Assembly (NCBI RefSeq): GCF_029581275.1
Contig: NZ_CP120742.1
Span: forward strand, 3,704,001 to 3,768,000
Direction of reading: 5' to 3'
Origin: Micromonospora sp. WMMD1155
Lineage (GTDB): Bacteria > Actinomycetota > Actinomycetes > Mycobacteriales > Micromonosporaceae
Length of the DNA: 64,000 nucleotides
The notes beneath the pieces were generated by a model. It saw nothing but the letters and a program-made list of their open reading frames with translations, was not told the origin of the DNA and did not search any database. Shown one piece after another: positions 28,843 through 44,588 of the stretch (position 1 is the stretch's first letter; every line of letters starts with the position of its first letter). A program made the position numbers and the translations under genes.

Positions 28843-31008
28843 GTGGTGGTTCACTCAGCGTCGGAACAGGTGCTCGCCGGGCTGGACCCGGAGCAGCGGT
28901 CCGCGGTGACCGCCCCGGCCGGCCCGGTCTGCATCCTGGCCGGCGCGGGCACCGGCAAGACCCGGGCGATCACCTCCCGGATCGCCCACCGGGCACTCAG
29001 CGGTGAGATATCCCCCCGGCACGTCCTCGCGGTCACGTTCACCGCCCGCGCCGCCGCCGAGATGCGAAGCCGGCTCACCGTCCTCGGGGTGGGCGGCGTG
29101 CAGGCCCGGACCTTCCACGCCGCCGCGTTGCGTCAGGTGCGGTACTTCGCGCCCCGGTTGTTGGCCGGCCGCGCCATGCCCGAACTGCTGGACAGCAAGG
29201 TGCGGCTCGTCACCCTCGCCGCGGCGCGGGTGGGCCTGCGCGCCGACCGTGCCGCCGCCCGCGACCTGGCCGGCGAGATCGAGTGGGCCAAGTCGTCGTT
29301 GGTCGAGCCGGCCGACTACGTGGTGTCCGCCGCCCGGGCGCTGCGGGACACCCCGCACGAGCCGGCGAAGGTGGCCGACGTGTTCACCGCGTACGAGCAG
29401 CTCAAACGCTCGAACGGCGTGATCGACTTCGAGGACATGTTGCGTGCCGCGGTGTGGGGCATCGAGGAGCACCCGGACGTCGGCGAGCAGGTGCGTGGCC
29501 AGTACCGGCACTTCGTGGTCGACGAGTACCAGGACGTCAACCCCCTCCAGCAGCGGCTGCTGGACGCCTGGCTGGGCGGCCGCGACGACCTGACCGTGGT
29601 CGGGGACGCCAGCCAGACGATCTACTCGTTCACCGGGGCGACCTCCGCGTACCTGGTCGACTTCCCCCGCCGGCACCGCAACGCCACAGTCGTGCGGCTG
29701 GTCCGCGACTACCGCTCCACCCCGCAGGTGGTCGGGTTGGCCAATGCGGTGATCTCCCAGGCCCGAGGCACCGAGGCGCGGTTGCGCCTGGAGTTGAGCG
29801 GACAGCGCCCACCCGGCCCCGAGCCGGACCTGCGGATCTTCACCGACGAGCCGGCCGAGGCGAATGCCGTGGCCGCCCGCTGCCGGGCGCTGATCGACGC
29901 GGGCACCCCGGCGAAGGAGATCGCCGTCCTGTTCCGGGTCAACGCGCAGTCCGAGGCGTACGAGAAGGCCCTCACCGAGGCGTCGGTGCCCTACGTCGTG
30001 CAGGGCGCGGAGCGGTTCTTCGAGCGGGCCGAGGTGCGCCAGGCGATGGTCGCGCTGCGCGCCGCCACCCGCTCCATCCCCGGGGAGACACCACTCCCGG
30101 CCGCCGTCGTCGAGGCGCTCACCGCGGTCGGTTGGGCCCCCGACGCACCCCCGGCCGGTGGGGCCGCCCGCGAGCGCTGGGAGGCGCTGTCCGCGCTGGT
30201 CCAGCTCTCCGAGGAGTACGCGGCCAGCCCCGCTGTGGTGCCGATCGGCGAGGCCGCGTCGGTGGAACGCCCCGTCACCCTCTTCGACTTCACCGAGGAG
30301 TTGGCGCGCCGCGCCGCCCAGCAGCACGTACCGACGGTGGACGGGGTGACCCTCGCCTCGCTGCACTCGGCCAAGGGGCTGGAGTGGGACGCCGTCTTCC
30401 TGGTCGGCCTCGCCGAGGGCACCATGCCGACCACGTACGCCAAGACCGTCGAACAGGTCGAGGAGGAACGTCGGCTGCTCTACGTCGGGATCACCCGGGC
30501 GCGGGAGTGGCTCTGGCTGTCGTACGCCGCAGCACGCTCGCCGGGCGGTCGGGCCCGGCGGCCGTCGCGGTTCCTGCCCCAGCTGGACCGCTCCGGCGGC
30601 ACCGAGCGGGCGACCGGCGGCACCGGCCCGGCCCGCCGCGCGGAGCGGCGTCGGACCCAGATCGTCTCCTGCCGGATCTGCGGTGCCACCCTGCTCGCCG
30701 GCCCGGACCGTAAGCTGGGCCGCTGCCCCACCTGCCCCTCCGACATCGACGACGAGCTGCACGAACGGCTGCGGGAGTGGCGGCAGCGGGTGTCCGCGGC
30801 GCAGAAGGTCCCCGCGTACGTGGTCTTCACCGACGCGACGCTGATCGCGCTGGCCGAGCGGCGGCCCGGACGGTCCGAGGAGTTGATCGCCATCGCCGGT
30901 ATCGGCCCCCGCAAACTGGGCCTCTACGGGGAGTCGGTGCTGGCGCTGGTGGGCGGCGCGGGGGTGGACGACGTCTGCCCGGAGAAAACTTTCGAAATCT
31001 CGTCGTAA
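28843..31008 (+). CDS. uvrD2: ATP-dependent DNA helicase UvrD2
   Basis: 721 aa SF1A helicase. Motifs: AGAGTGKTR (I, about 33), TFTARAAAEMRSRL (Ia), VVDEYQDVNPLQQ (II, about 226), VGDASQTIYSFTGA (III), VRDYRSTPQVV (IV), SLHSAKGLEWDAVFLVGL (V) and YVGITRARE (VI). The C-terminal half shows the UvrD2 hallmarks: a tetracysteine zinc module (CRICGATL and CPTCP, about 610-630) and an HRDC domain (YVVFTDATLIALAERRP, about 645-712). It starts at GTG 28843. The TAA stop lies within the AT-rich stretch that belongs to the whiB7 promoter. Confidence 0.95.
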   Translation: MVVHSASEQVLAGLDPEQRSAVTAPAGPVCILAGAGTGKTRAITSRIAHRALSGEISPRHVLAVTFTARAAAEMRSRLTVLGVGGVQARTFHAAALRQVRYFAPRLLAGRAMPELLDSKVRLVTLAAARVGLRADRAAARDLAGEIEWAKSSLVEPADYVVSAARALRDTPHEPAKVADVFTAYEQLKRSNGVIDFEDMLRAAVWGIEEHPDVGEQVRGQYRHFVVDEYQDVNPLQQRLLDAWLGGRDDLTVVGDASQTIYSFTGATSAYLVDFPRRHRNATVVRLVRDYRSTPQVVGLANAVISQARGTEARLRLELSGQRPPGPEPDLRIFTDEPAEANAVAARCRALIDAGTPAKEIAVLFRVNAQSEAYEKALTEASVPYVVQGAERFFERAEVRQAMVALRAATRSIPGETPLPAAVVEALTAVGWAPDAPPAGGAARERWEALSALVQLSEEYAASPAVVPIGEAASVERPVTLFDFTEELARRAAQQHVPTVDGVTLASLHSAKGLEWDAVFLVGLAEGTMPTTYAKTVEQVEEERRLLYVGITRAREWLWLSYAAARSPGGRARRPSRFLPQLDRSGGTERATGGTGPARRAERRRTQIVSCRICGATLLAGPDRKLGRCPTCPSDIDDELHERLREWRQRVSAAQKVPAYVVFTDATLIALAERRPGRSEELIAIAGIGPRKLGLYGESVLALVGGAGVDDVCPEKTFEISS

Positions 31009-31014
31009 ATTCGT

Positions 31015-31044
31015 TTGCCCTCGCCCCCGGGCGAGGAATAGCCT
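31015..31044 (+). promoter_or_regulatory. Probable whiB7 promoter
   Basis: TTGCCC (31015-31020) and TAGCCT (31039-31044) are separated by 18 nt. Immediately upstream is an AT-rich stretch (CGTAAATTCG). WhiB7-dependent promoters in other actinobacteria need an AT-rich element next to the -35 for AT-hook contact, so autoregulation is likely. The element overlaps the uvrD2 stop codon. Confidence 0.5.
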
Positions 31045-31130
31045 CAGGACACACCACGCGAGCGGCGCCATTCCGGCTGCTCACGGGGGTTGGTTCAGTC
31101 GAGTCGAGGAACGTGAGGGAGGTGGCACCC

Positions 31131-31382
31131 GTGAAGATCTTCACCTATGAGCGTCTGACGGCGATGCCGTCTGTCCACGCTCCGCTGTCGGCTGTCCGGG
31201 TGGCCCTCACGGTCACCGCACGACCGTCGGTTCCGCAGGTGCACCAGGTTCAGGCCGAGCTGATCCTGGCCGTCGCGCCCACCGGAGTCGAGGGGACCAG
31301 TGGCTTCACGGGCAATGGCATCCAGGTCGCCAAGAAGCGCATGGATGTCCGCGGCGTTCCACCTCGAGGTAGACCGGTCTGA
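31131..31382 (+). CDS. Leader ORF (uORF) of whiB7
   Basis: 83 codons from GTG 31131, with GGGAGGTGG well placed upstream. The product (VKIFTYERLTAMPSVHAPLS onward) matches no family I know. Its importance is positional: it lies between the whiB7 promoter and an intrinsic terminator, and its TGA (31380-31382) falls in the apical stem of a hairpin that competes with that terminator. Leader ORFs with this role are established for whiB7/wblC in mycobacteria and Streptomyces, though usually shorter. It may act only through translation and not through its protein product. Confidence 0.65.
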   Translation: MKIFTYERLTAMPSVHAPLSAVRVALTVTARPSVPQVHQVQAELILAVAPTGVEGTSGFTGNGIQVAKKRMDVRGVPPRGRPV

Positions 31383-31408
31383 CGATCAGACACCGGCTCA
31401 CCTCGAGG
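31362..31408 (+). promoter_or_regulatory. Anti-terminator hairpin in the whiB7 leader
   Basis: CCTCGAGGT (31362-31370) pairs with ACCTCGAGG (31400-31408), CCGG (31374-31377) with CCGG (31393-31396), and TCTGA (31378-31382) with TCAGA (31386-31390) around a CGA loop. The 3' arm uses bases 31405-31408, which are also the foot of the terminator stem. The uORF stop codon lies inside the apical stem, so a ribosome reaching it would open this hairpin. Confidence 0.7.
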
Positions 31409-31448
31409 CCGCGGAACCCGTAACCGGGATCCGCGGCCTCAATTTTTT
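31405..31448 (+). terminator. Intrinsic terminator (attenuator) before whiB7
   Basis: GAGGCCGCGGA (31405-31415) pairs with TCCGCGGCCTC (31430-31440). Inside, CCCG (31417-31420) pairs with CGGG (31425-31428), for 15 bp with one A-A mismatch and a TAAC loop. AATTTTTT follows directly (31441-31448), a rare true T-tract in this GC-rich window. whiB7 starts 63 nt further on. Confidence 0.88.
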
Positions 31449-31511
31449 GCCCGCCGTAAGTACGTCGGAATGCGATCCACGAGATCGAAGTGAGAGAGAG
31501 GTGACCGGGAG

Positions 31512-31877
31512 ATGAGTCTGGCGTTGGCCCCCCTCGACATGAGCGTCGAGCTGGAGGCGAACCTGCCCTGCCGGAAGTTCGACCCCGACCTGTGGTTCTC
31601 CGACTCGCCCACCGAGCTCGAGCTGGCCAAGTCGCTCTGCGGGGACTGCCCGCTGCGCGTCGAGTGCCTGGCCGGAGCCGTTGAGCGAGCGGAGCCGTGG
31701 GGCGTCTGGGGCGGCGAGATCTTCGAGCGTGGCGCGGTCGTCCCGCGCAAGCGGCCCCGTGGCCGTCCGCGTAAGGAGGACGTCGCCCGCGACGCCGAGC
31801 TTCGGGTCGAGGCCGAGGCGCGTCTGGCAGCCAGTGGGCTGTCCGAGGTGCGTGGCGCGGTCCGGCTGGCAGCCTGA
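31512..31877 (+). CDS. whiB7: WhiB7 redox-sensitive antibiotic-resistance activator
   Basis: 121 aa Wbl protein. The [4Fe-4S] ligands are Cys20, Cys43, Cys46 and Cys52 (LCGDCPLRVEC). The GVWGG turn (64-68) binds the sigma factor region 4. The C-terminal AT-hook RGRPRK (83-88) is the feature that separates WhiB7/WblC from other Wbl proteins. In other actinobacteria it turns on efflux, ribosome-protection and methylation genes in response to ribosome-targeting antibiotics. It lies downstream of uvrD2 as in mycobacteria and is preceded by a leader ORF and attenuator (31131-31448). The ribosome site is a loose GAGAGAGG about 11 nt upstream. Confidence 0.95.
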   Translation: MSLALAPLDMSVELEANLPCRKFDPDLWFSDSPTELELAKSLCGDCPLRVECLAGAVERAEPWGVWGGEIFERGAVVPRKRPRGRPRKEDVARDAELRVEAEARLAASGLSEVRGAVRLAA

Positions 31878-32170: not shown

Positions 32171-33517
32171 TCAGGCGACCGGCGCGAAGCCGGGCAGCCA
32201 GCGCTCCAGGATGCTGCGGTACGGGGCCTTCGCCTCCAGTTGGCACAGCACCCCGATCGAGCCGAGCGTCACCCGGTGGATCAGCAGGTACGACGGCGGC
32301 AGGTTGAGCTGCCGGCTCAGCTGGTACGTGGGGGAGCGGGGGCTGGCCAGCCGGCCCGCCTCGGCCCGCAGCCAGGCCCGGGTGAAGCGGAACCCGTCCG
32401 CCGCGATGGGCTCCAGCATCGGACGGATGAAGTCGAGCACACCCTCGGCGTCGACCTCCTCGGCGGAGCCGATGAAGCCCTCCGAACGAAGCCCCTGCAC
32501 CACCTCGTCGGCGTCGCCGCGCAGGGCTGTCGCGGCGATGCGGCCGATCGGCTCCGGCGTGCCCTCCGGCATCCGGGCCACCGCGCCGAAGTCGATGACA
32601 CCGAGTCGCCCGTCGGGCAGCAGCCGGAAGTTGCCCGGGTGCGGATCGGCGTGCAGCAGCCCGGCCCGCTGCGGCGCGGAGAGGTGCAGGGTGGCCATCA
32701 ACCGACCGGCCTCGTCGCGCTGCTCCTCGGTGCCCTCGCGGATGATGTCGGCCAACGGGGTGCCCGTCACCCACTCGGTGACCAGCACCCGGGGCGCCGC
32801 GTTGACGACCTTCGGGATGTAGATCTCCGGGTCGTCGGCGTACGCGGCCGCGAAGGCCCGCTGCGACTCGGCCTCCAGCTCGTAGTCCAACTCCTCGGTG
32901 ATCCGCTCGCGCAACTCGACAAGGAGCGGCTTGACGTCCAGGCCGGGTTGGATGGCCCGGAACATGCCCCCCAGGCGGGAGAGCTGCTTGAGGTCGGCGA
33001 GCAGTGCCTCGCCGGCACCCGGATATTGGATCTTGACCGCGACGTCGCGGCCGTTCGGTGCGCCCGACTCGTCGAACCCCGGCTCCCGCCACCGGGCCCG
33101 GTGCACCTGGCCGATGCTGGCCGCCGCGGCCGGAGTGTCGTTGAACTCGACGAACAAGTCCCGCCAGTCGGGGCCGAGTTGTTCGGCCAGCACCTTGTGC
33201 ACGCTGGCCGCCGGCAGCGGTGGCGCCGCCTCCTGGAGCTTCGTGAGCGCCTGGCGGTAGGGCGCGGCGATCTCCTCCGGCAGCGCCGCCTCGAAGACCG
33301 ACAGCGCCTGACCGAACTTCATCGCCCCGCCCTTGAGCTGGCCCAACACGCTGAACAGCTGCTCGGCGGTGCGCTGCTGGATCTCCGCGGAGATCACGTC
33401 GGAGGCGAGCCCGGTGACGCGCTTTCCCATGCCGAGAACCGTCCGGCCGGCGAAGCCGAGCGGTAGGGCGGCGAGCTTGGCGGTGCGGGACACGGCGCGG
33501 CGCGGGATGTCGGTCAC
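32171..33517 (-). CDS. ABC1/UbiB (AarF) atypical kinase-like protein
   Basis: 448 aa. The family-specific KxGQ motif (MKFGQALS), the Ala-rich nucleotide loop AAAASIGQVHRA, VAVKIQYPG (Lys), HADPHPGNF (catalytic loop) and VIDFGAVA (metal Asp) are all present in order. ABC1/UbiB proteins are unusual ATPases or kinases that assist lipid or quinone metabolism. GTG 33517 is chosen because it overlaps the upstream gene stop (GTGA), showing coupling. Mycobacteria carry an ABC1 gene at the same place beside whiB7. The substrate is unknown. Confidence 0.9.
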   Translation of the reverse strand: MTDIPRRAVSRTAKLAALPLGFAGRTVLGMGKRVTGLASDVISAEIQQRTAEQLFSVLGQLKGGAMKFGQALSVFEAALPEEIAAPYRQALTKLQEAAPPLPAASVHKVLAEQLGPDWRDLFVEFNDTPAAAASIGQVHRARWREPGFDESGAPNGRDVAVKIQYPGAGEALLADLKQLSRLGGMFRAIQPGLDVKPLLVELRERITEELDYELEAESQRAFAAAYADDPEIYIPKVVNAAPRVLVTEWVTGTPLADIIREGTEEQRDEAGRLMATLHLSAPQRAGLLHADPHPGNFRLLPDGRLGVIDFGAVARMPEGTPEPIGRIAATALRGDADEVVQGLRSEGFIGSAEEVDAEGVLDFIRPMLEPIAADGFRFTRAWLRAEAGRLASPRSPTYQLSRQLNLPPSYLLIHRVTLGSIGVLCQLEAKAPYRSILERWLPGFAPVA

Positions 33518-34635
33518 CCGGTCATTGTTACCGACCGGAGGGCTCCGCTGCTGGTCTGCGGCCGGGCTGGTGCGGACACCCGCCCCCGGGAGCACCCACA
33601 CGCCGGGTGTGGAGGCCATCCTCGACGACGGAAACGACCGGCACCGGTGATCTCCATCGCCCCGCCCAGCGTCTCGGGCTGACCGCCGTCGAGCTGCGTC
33701 AGCGCCTCGGCCAGCGCGTACCCGATGGCGGTGAGCAGCGTGCTGGTCGCTCCGGCGGCGACCGGATCGGTGGCGGCGAGTTGCGCGGCGAGGCGCGGCC
33801 AGTCCGGGTCGCGGTCGGCCCGGTGCAGCTCGACGCAGTGCAGGCAGGGCCCGGCGGGTGGGCGGACCAGCGGCCCGACGACCGGTACGCCCTCGCGAAG
33901 GGTGACCAGCAGGTGTGGCTGCCGCCGCTGGGCGAGGCCGGCGGCGAGCAGCGCCGGTGGCCGATCCGTGCCGAGCTGGATGACCAGGTCCACCCGACCG
34001 CCCCGACCGCCCCGACCCGACCGGGTGCCGGTGCCCGGAGCGACGCGGTTGACGGCAGCGCGCACCGCCGGTGCCAGCGGGTGGCCCAGCTCGGCGGCGG
34101 GGATGCCGGTACCGACCAGGTCGACGGGGCGTACCGGGCCGGTGAGCTGGGGGATCACCTGCCCGACGCCGGCCTGGGCCAACGCCACGGTCAACGAACC
34201 ACCGAACGCCCCGGTGCCGATGAGCGCCACCCGGGCGGCCCGCCGTCGGCGGAGGACCTGCGCGGGGGTGCCGGGCAGTCGGGCCGCGGCCAGGGCCAGA
34301 GCGCCGGCCTCGGCCGCCAGTCGGGCGCGGACCGGGCCGACGAGGTCACGGGGGAGCAGGCTGTGCGCAGGGACCAACAGCCCGGCCGTACGCAGGGCGT
34401 CGAGCAGCGTACGGGCCTCGTCGGCGGTGACCCGGACGCTGGCCGCGTGCGCCAGCACGGTGCGCTCGCTGCGGGTGCCGTCGATCAGGTCGAGTAGGTG
34501 GGCGGCCCGAGGGTTGGCCAACTCCAGCAGCACGGCGGGCCCCGGCCCGACGCCGAGCTGCAGGGTGTGCCGGTCCCGCCAGAGCCGGTTGAGACCGGGC
34601 AGCAGTGTGGGGCGGGGCAGTGCGGTACGTCTCAT
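33514..34635 (-). CDS. ThiF/E1-like protein resembling TOMM leader-binding cyclodehydratase
   Basis: 373 aa. A winged-helix-like N-terminal part (TLLDALRTAGLLVP) is followed by a Rossmann nucleotide loop VALIGTGAFGGS (about 137-147). Cysteine pairs in GPCLHCVELHR (about 270) and HPACGC (near 346-348) resemble the structural zinc site of the E1-like TOMM/azoline synthesis proteins. No YcaO partner or precursor peptide gene is adjacent, so an azoline natural product is not supported. It is coupled by 4 nt to the UbiB-like gene downstream. ATG 34635 is taken. Confidence 0.7.
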   Translation of the reverse strand: MRRTALPRPTLLPGLNRLWRDRHTLQLGVGPGPAVLLELANPRAAHLLDLIDGTRSERTVLAHAASVRVTADEARTLLDALRTAGLLVPAHSLLPRDLVGPVRARLAAEAGALALAAARLPGTPAQVLRRRRAARVALIGTGAFGGSLTVALAQAGVGQVIPQLTGPVRPVDLVGTGIPAAELGHPLAPAVRAAVNRVAPGTGTRSGRGGRGGRVDLVIQLGTDRPPALLAAGLAQRRQPHLLVTLREGVPVVGPLVRPPAGPCLHCVELHRADRDPDWPRLAAQLAATDPVAAGATSTLLTAIGYALAEALTQLDGGQPETLGGAMEITGAGRFRRRGWPPHPACGCSRGRVSAPARPQTSSGALRSVTMTG

Positions 34636-44317: not shown

Positions 44318-44391
44318 CGCGGGGTGGAGCAGCTCGGTAGCTCGCTGGGCTCATAACCCAGAGGTCGCAGGTTCAAATCCTGTCCCCGCTA
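44318..44391 (+). tRNA. Initiator tRNA-fMet (CAT), copy 1
   Basis: 74 nt without encoded CCA. The anticodon CAT (44352-44354) sits on a stem with three consecutive G-C pairs (GGG...CCC), the initiator hallmark. The first base pair is mismatched (C1-U72), the other initiator feature. The T loop GGTTCAAATCC is standard. It is identical to copy 2, 197 nt downstream. Confidence 0.97.
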
Positions 44392-44514: not shown

Positions 44515-44588
44515 CGCGGGGTGGAGCAGCTCGGTAGCTCGCTGGGCTCATAACCCAGAGGTCGCAGGTTCAAATCCTGTCCCCGCTA
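44515..44588 (+). tRNA. Initiator tRNA-fMet (CAT), copy 2
   Basis: Identical 74-nt sequence to copy 1, including the C1-U72 mismatch and GGG/CCC anticodon stem. Its own -10 (TAGGCT, 44498-44503) and its own terminator show it is an independent unit rather than part of a tandem transcript. Confidence 0.97.

Follow-up and report, generated by a model that had tools for sequence, protein, structure and literature searches.

What decides whether whiB7 is transcribed in Micromonospora sp. WMMD1155, where a leader holding both an open reading frame (ORF) and an intrinsic terminator stands before the gene? Micromonospora are known as producers of aminoglycosides and other ribosome inhibitors. The DNA analyzed here, referred to as the window, is the whole stretch of 64,000 nucleotides at positions 3704001-3768000 of the 7.34-Mb single-contig genome, and coordinates below are positions within it. 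A first-pass annotation of this DNA had proposed a ribosome-controlled switch in front of whiB7. Comparison with related leaders supports the proposal through a conserved frame, covarying and mutually exclusive stems and a stop codon placed in the apical stem, and we regard a ribosome-controlled transcription attenuator of whiB7 as very likely. The features used in the argument are as follows.

31006-31011, + strand: AT-rich box TAAATT, a candidate WhiB7/WblC box, 3 nt before the -35 element and overlapping the stop codon of the uvrD2-like gene
31015-31044, + strand: putative promoter, TTGCCC (31015-31020), 18-nt spacer, TAGCCT (31039-31044), from motif conservation
31117-31124, + strand: Shine-Dalgarno (SD) sequence GGGAGGTG of the leader ORF, from the sequence and the conservation of the SD in the family
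31131-31382, + strand: leader ORF (uORF), 83 codons, GTG start, TGA stop, from ORF reading and family comparison
31293-31303, + strand: conserved nucleotide block GGGACCAGTGG inside the uORF, from leader comparison
31353-31370, + strand: predicted 5’ arm of the antiterminator, doubling as codons for GVPPRG, from covariation with 31400-31419
31374-31396, + strand: predicted apical stem-loop containing the stop codon (31380-31382), from pairing and from a stop base that changes with its partner among TGA and TAG leaders
31400-31419, + strand: predicted 3’ arm of the antiterminator, overlapping the terminator 5’ arm, from covariation and folding
31405-31448, + strand: predicted intrinsic terminator with a 15-bp stem holding one A.A mismatch, followed by T6, from folding and covariation
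31512-31877, + strand: whiB7, WhiB-family regulator of 121 aa, the controlled gene (Pfam Whib, E 1.6e-13)

The whiB7 protein shared 97% identity with those of two Micromonospora strains, the closest named ones among the matches listed, and an NCBIfam search assigned the protein itself to no family. Its 5’ neighbor encodes a UvrD-type helicase with an HRDC domain (28843-31008, uvrD2-like), and its 3’ neighbor is a convergent ABC1-domain gene (32171-33619) whose best NCBIfam model, MABP-1, scored 513 bits, below the cut-off of 800. The Whib domain, the best match within the genome and the uvrD2-like and ABC1/MABP-1-like neighbors identify the controlled gene as the whiB7/wblC orthologue. The gene order agrees with uvrD2-whiB7-Rv3197, the order in M. 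tuberculosis. A search of the whole window against Rfam with cmscan returned two tRNAs alone and no Rfam family for a whiB7 leader at the gathering score; the tRNA genes (44318-44391 and 44515-44588, + strand) lie about 200 bases apart and scored 61.7 bits each.

For comparison, whiB7 was found in 61/61 genomes of the genus (own genome included), 117/121 of the family, 59/61 of the order and 68/79 of the class, these sets overlapping. Leaders were taken from 40/60 genus relatives and from 60/109 other family, 40/53 other order and 20/63 other class genomes with a match. In 158 of 161 leaders, the window included, whiB7 was preceded by a terminator of this sequence type (missing in L098, L127 and L142), as judged by a pattern that, like the block patterns used below, was devised after the sequences had been viewed.

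The putative promoter motif was present in 40/41 genus leaders and 31/56 other family leaders with a uORF, against 2/1940 shuffles, and its spacer was identical in 71/71 matching leaders. Judging from the promoter position, transcription would start at about 31051. Passages of PMC7157823 give the WhiB7/WblC box as GAAAWY, which TAAATT matches at 5/6 positions, the first base differing, and describe a WblC box at the spacing that the AT-rich box has here, 3 nt upstream of -35. AT-rich 6-mers stand at the box position in the leaders of relatives too. A plain, unregulated terminator of uvrD2-derived transcription, with an ORF arisen by chance and a later promoter of its own for whiB7, is an explanation that we consider extremely improbable. 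The position between two genes would suit it, as would the absence of a sigma-70 promoter from a simple consensus scan of 30950-31560, a scan that listed no terminator either; the conservation of the upstream promoter motif at constant spacing speaks against it.

Translation of the leader ORF

The 83-codon ORF that the first-pass annotation had placed at 31131-31382 was verified, with its GTG start and with GGGAGGTG as SD upstream; Val, Ala and Pro are frequent in the peptide it encodes. An ORF ending in VRGVPPRG[R/K]PV was present in the window and in all 40 genus leaders, among them L045, whose uORF start is unclear and which was excluded from the genus nucleotide alignment (40 rows). Within the family, 97/101 leaders carried a PPR-ended ORF (L096, L098, L103 and L105 did not), 96 of these being 82-162 codons long, and the SD matched at least 5 bases in 92/97. 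The start chosen by script is doubtful, with an SD of at most 4 bases, in L075, L078, L084, L087 and L102, of which L078 is cut by the contig end. L075, from a draft genome, has just 21 codons in frame with the PPR motif and, in another frame, an ORF that follows an SD and carries the N-terminus ERPSALP customary in the family, a sign of either a broken leader frame or an error in the draft sequence.

Within the 97 uORFs, whose own frame is open by construction, the other two frames were open in 3 and 15 cases. Distinct indels among genus leaders were triplets in 11/11 cases inside the uORF, compared with 4/20 in the 5’ UTR and 7/26 after the stop. Translation of the leader ORF is well supported in these sequences by the conserved frame, the triplet indels, the closed alternative frames and the SD. 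The same conservation of frame, indel length, start and SD runs counter to an ORF arisen by chance before a plain terminator. The SD region 31119-31125 (GAGGTGG) is complementary to 31359-31365 (CCACCTC) in the antiterminator arm, and a genus consensus fold predicts that the two pair. A second ORF, running from a GTG at 31300 to the whiB7 start, ended at the offset seen in the window in at most 10 of the 40 block-bearing genus leaders (41 in total) and was attributed to chance.

Competing stems and the proposed switch

The 15-bp, T-tailed intrinsic terminator proposed at 31405-31448 was missed by the simple scan and borne out by folding: its stem has 11 + 4 pairs flanking one A.A mismatch, T6 follows at 31443-31448, and 31405-31440 folds at -31.6 kcal/mol. 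The hairpin that had been drawn at 31362-31408 does fold as described (-28.2 kcal/mol) but is too small, the 3’ arm of the antiterminator extending to 31419; extended antiterminators are more stable, at -36.0 kcal/mol for 31353-31419 and -41.2 kcal/mol for 31348-31421. Likewise the overlap of hairpin and terminator, given as bases 31405-31408, exists but was understated: because the 3’ arm reaches 31419, the antiterminator would compete with nearly the whole terminator 5’ arm.

The 498-base leader folded better than 100/100 shuffles (z -3.33), and the module 31345-31450 gave an alifold z of -5.08 on 40 genus sequences, with 0/100 column shuffles as good. Without selection of leaders, the upstream sequence of 158 leaders was compared with shuffled upstream sequence for pairing with the terminator 5’ arm; real sequence paired better at z < -2 in 144 (genus 41/41, other family 56/59, order 33/38, class 14/20).

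Pairs were then counted on two alignments, A1 (96/158 leaders, 68/100 of the family and 28/58 of order and class, picked partly for a visible arm) and A2 (45 of 86 rows kept from A1), both of whose pair counts lean towards structure. On A1, the antiterminator with its extension (31353-31360/31413-31419) was paired in 87.6% of cells, 7/16 antiterminator pairs were changed on both sides and the covariation score was matched by 0/500 shuffles, while slid versions of the antiterminator paired in 31-62%. Its weak spots on A1 are the three middle extension pairs, unpaired in 28-37 of the 96 rows, and 31370/31400, unpaired in 46. The terminator was paired in 97.4% of cells on A1, with 6/15 pairs changed on both sides. 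For the apical stem, 81.4% of cells were paired on A1 and 32 cells were changed on both sides vs 12.5 in shuffles; the number of its both-side-changed pairs (4) equaled the shuffled mean, and for further pair types and both-side-changed pairs shuffles were as good in 114/500 and 349/500. On A2, two of five covariation measures did not rise above shuffles (further pair types 475/500; both-side-changed pairs 173/500). Covariation among relatives, which the first-pass annotation had named as the check on its two stems, was thus found for both, and they are conserved in Micromonosporaceae and beyond. That the competing stem is conserved together with the terminator is a further point against a plain, unregulated terminator.

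The stop codon was compared with the base opposite its middle base in 84/97 family uORFs, those with TCT before the pairing base. This base was T in 7/11 TAG leaders and in 0/58 TGA leaders, C in 53/58 TGA leaders, and in TAA leaders C in 12/15 and A in 3, which gives no pairing. Judged by this tracking, the stop codon takes part in the apical stem in TGA and TAG leaders and not in TAA leaders.

The effect of a ribosome was modeled by folding scans that sampled every sixth codon and then codons 66-83, with the ribosome assumed to cover -15 to +17 relative to the P-site base. With the RNA end at 31421, the antiterminator formed at all sampled P-site codons up to 72, at a probability of 0.39 at codon 73, and was absent at codons 74-83; in the scan without a ribosome it formed at 0.998. 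Equilibrium folding of the full leader gave the terminator a probability of 0.99-1.00 with or without a ribosome. Since the terminator wins at equilibrium in every case, the switch would have to be kinetic, set by the order of folding during transcription, and an antiterminator formed first would, in this modeling, have to last until polymerase has passed.

The attenuator would then work as follows. RNA would begin near 31051 and a ribosome would load at 31131. A freely moving ribosome would reach the last ~10 codons and cover 31353-31370 while polymerase is making 31400-31440; with the 5’ arm of the antiterminator covered, the terminator would form and whiB7 would go unread. If a ribosome were slowed anywhere in roughly the first 72 codons, were stalled there because of an inhibitor or the lack of a charged tRNA, or had failed to load, the antiterminator 31353-31419 would fold first and take the 5’ arm of the terminator, and polymerase would continue into whiB7, whose product would then boost its own promoter. 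The direction of this switch, from stalled ribosome to read-through, its co-transcriptional timing and the inducing drugs are points that we infer.

Conservation of the leader peptide and the uORF body

Is the peptide itself the sensor? An arrest peptide, in which the conserved C-terminus GVPPRGRPV or a preceding basic +X+ motif stalls the ribosome together with a drug, would account for a C-terminus that hardly varies within the genus and recurs often across the family, for KKR preceding the C-terminal motif in 26/41 genus leaders, and for +X+ motifs at about twice their frequency in shuffled peptides in three peptide windows (22/117, 20/117 and 24/114; shuffled means 10.8-11.0). The C-terminal motif, on the other hand, coincides with the antiterminator arm: its codons CCT and CGA were fixed in 41/41 genus leaders, and a change of GGT to AGT (Gly to Ser; e.g. 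L063, L085, L099, L104) was accompanied by replacement of C by T at the partner position of the 3’ arm, the pair at this Gly/Ser codon being A-U in 11/96 rows of A1. The conserved C-terminus is thus for the most part one paired strand of the antiterminator in translation, and its peptide sequence would be conserved because these codons form the arm.

The uORF body gives a second reason to think an arrest peptide very unlikely. No sign that the peptide is under selection emerged there from the codon positions in 32 genus genomes: mean column identity was flat at 0.858/0.833/0.823 over codon positions 1/2/3, unlike the tail of uvrD2 in the same genomes at 0.891/0.941/0.698 (a control covering 32/40 genomes, those where a motif located the gene end), and the untranslated 5’ UTR stood at 0.826. 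A macrolide-type +X+ motif directly before the switch was tried as a candidate and set aside; it was enriched there (22/117 nonredundant uORFs, with 1/300 shuffles as high) and equally in the next two windows along the peptide, and so has no special place.

With the C-terminus read as an RNA arm, the conservation of the uORF body is left to be explained. Four-fold sites were more conserved in the body (0.895, 21 sites) than in the uvrD2 tail (0.673, 57 sites), and no conserved fold was detected among 40 genus sequences in the body (alifold z -0.77) or in the 5’ UTR; in these alignments the body is conserved at the nucleotide level with no detectable secondary structure. The strict form GGSACSRGTSTG of the block occurred in 9/58 order and class leaders vs 1/2900 shuffles, for a pattern drawn up after the data had been viewed. 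Related to GGGACCAGTGG, GGSACSRGTSTG recurs in several other families and reads GTG[L/V] or GTS; its third codon mostly ends in T whichever of G, S or T it encodes. Base pairing between the block and the switch module was considered and rejected, being strong in the genus alone (mean z -2.29; outside it -0.73, -0.10 and -0.31).

These observations bear on whether the leader has a second task. A trans-acting small-RNA role for the terminated leader, or a polymerase pause signal within it, either of which would explain the nucleotide conservation of the body, is in our judgment quite unlikely: the four-fold sites and the occurrence of GGSACSRGTSTG in leaders of several families fit it, while the body has no conserved fold and the pairing between block and module is absent outside the genus. 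A wider version, which we also think unlikely, would have the whole leader under nucleotide-level selection, with translation of the uORF needed and its peptide irrelevant, and would give the ~400-nt terminated RNA or the GGSACSRGTSTG signal a further job, for example pausing polymerase so that it stays coordinated with the ribosome, or acting in trans as a small RNA.

Geometry, spread and known systems

Leader geometry was surveyed at 80 named loci, with stops sought within 120 nt of the terminator core. The terminator was present in 73 loci and a uORF with an SD of at least 6 bases in 62; the rest comprised 7 loci with no terminator by the pattern, 1 with no uORF and 10 with an SD of fewer than six bases. 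The 62 uORFs ranged from 37 to 123 codons (median 84), and their stop codons began 18-34 nt upstream of the terminator core GGCC; 97 family leaders had a gap of 16-32 nt behind the stop. In these leaders, then, the geometry from stop to terminator is fixed and leader length is free. The first-pass annotation had singled out the long leader peptide and the placing of its stop codon as the notable features of this locus, and both turn out to be usual (62/80 named loci). Fixed geometry and free length over many families fit a general sensor of ribosome transit and not of one amino acid or drug.

Searched with a model of the element (R1), the genome that holds the window gave one full match (E 2.1e-24), and the second-best separate location reached E 0.44. 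The model matched 59/61 family genomes, including 57/57 of good quality, with G084 giving a partial match (E 0.015), and the best matches compared by eye (G026, G012, G069, G079, G090) sit directly upstream of whiB7. About 20 weaker R1 matches lay away from whiB7, and 7 of them were inspected as candidate further copies of the element and rejected: 6 were GC-rich hairpins and L176 was not terminator-like, and by eye none of these 7 places had the PPR leader motif, although a script listed short ORFs upstream of four. A plasmid search in distant mode with one 498-base query did not find the element.

The first-pass annotation described leader control of whiB7/wblC as known in mycobacteria and Streptomyces, and the literature agrees: uORF-mediated attenuation in both genera is stated or suggested in passages of PMC11550727, PMC13236596, PMC13393426, PMC9618640, PMC12421871, PMC4128351 and PMC7157823, the inducers named being ribosome-targeting drugs and amino-acid starvation. 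The attenuator of Mycobacterium (M. tuberculosis, M. bovis, M. marinum, M. smegmatis), as excerpted in PMC4128351, PMC13236596, PMC13393426 and PMC9618640, has as here a uORF with an SD and a terminator directly after it, and its stalled uORF translation leads to read-through. For Streptomyces wblC, parts of PMC11550727 describe a riboregulator of the kind proposed here, in which uORF translation favors a Rho-independent terminator and inhibition or starvation favors an antiterminator.

The mechanism of attenuation itself is therefore already published for Mycobacterium and Streptomyces, and what is new is the Micromonospora instance; a literature search by title, with partial journal coverage, returned no paper on a Micromonospora whiB7 leader, and three papers contain the names of both the genus and the gene. 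The present analysis extends a known antibiotic-sensing switch to Micromonospora, offers a testable pairing model with covariation, and accounts for the otherwise puzzling conservation of a leader peptide whose codons form an RNA arm. Lee, Lee and Roe, in their 2022 work on the wblC uORF riboregulator, reportedly found antiterminators conserved in sub-clades of actinomycetes. In family f33, which we take for Streptomyces, uORFs were 105-109 codons long and followed by a terminator of the same type (3 genomes); by eye the arm reads CCCTGGAG/CTTCAGGG, in contrast to CCTCGAGG/CCTCGAGG in Micromonospora, and the uORF peptide differs.

The leader also resembles amino-acid attenuators with leader peptides, such as ilvB1 of M. 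tuberculosis, in having a leader ORF and an antiterminator set against a terminator. In ilvB1, four regulatory codons sense one pathway, according to an excerpt of PMC13236596, whereas in Micromonospora about 72 of the 83 codons would lie in the sensing zone given by the folding scan. The target here, unlike that of single-pathway amino-acid attenuators, is a general resistance regulator.

Thirteen uORFs from Mycobacterium/Mycolicibacterium (L204, L206-L208, L211, L232, L234, L237, L241, L247, L249, L250 and L257) were 42-86 codons long and mostly Ala-rich by eye, whereas the Micromonospora uORF, of 83 codons, encodes a peptide with much Val, Ala and Pro and has the CCTCGAGG/CCTCGAGG arm. The many Ala codons are in line with a link to alanine starvation named in the title of one paper.
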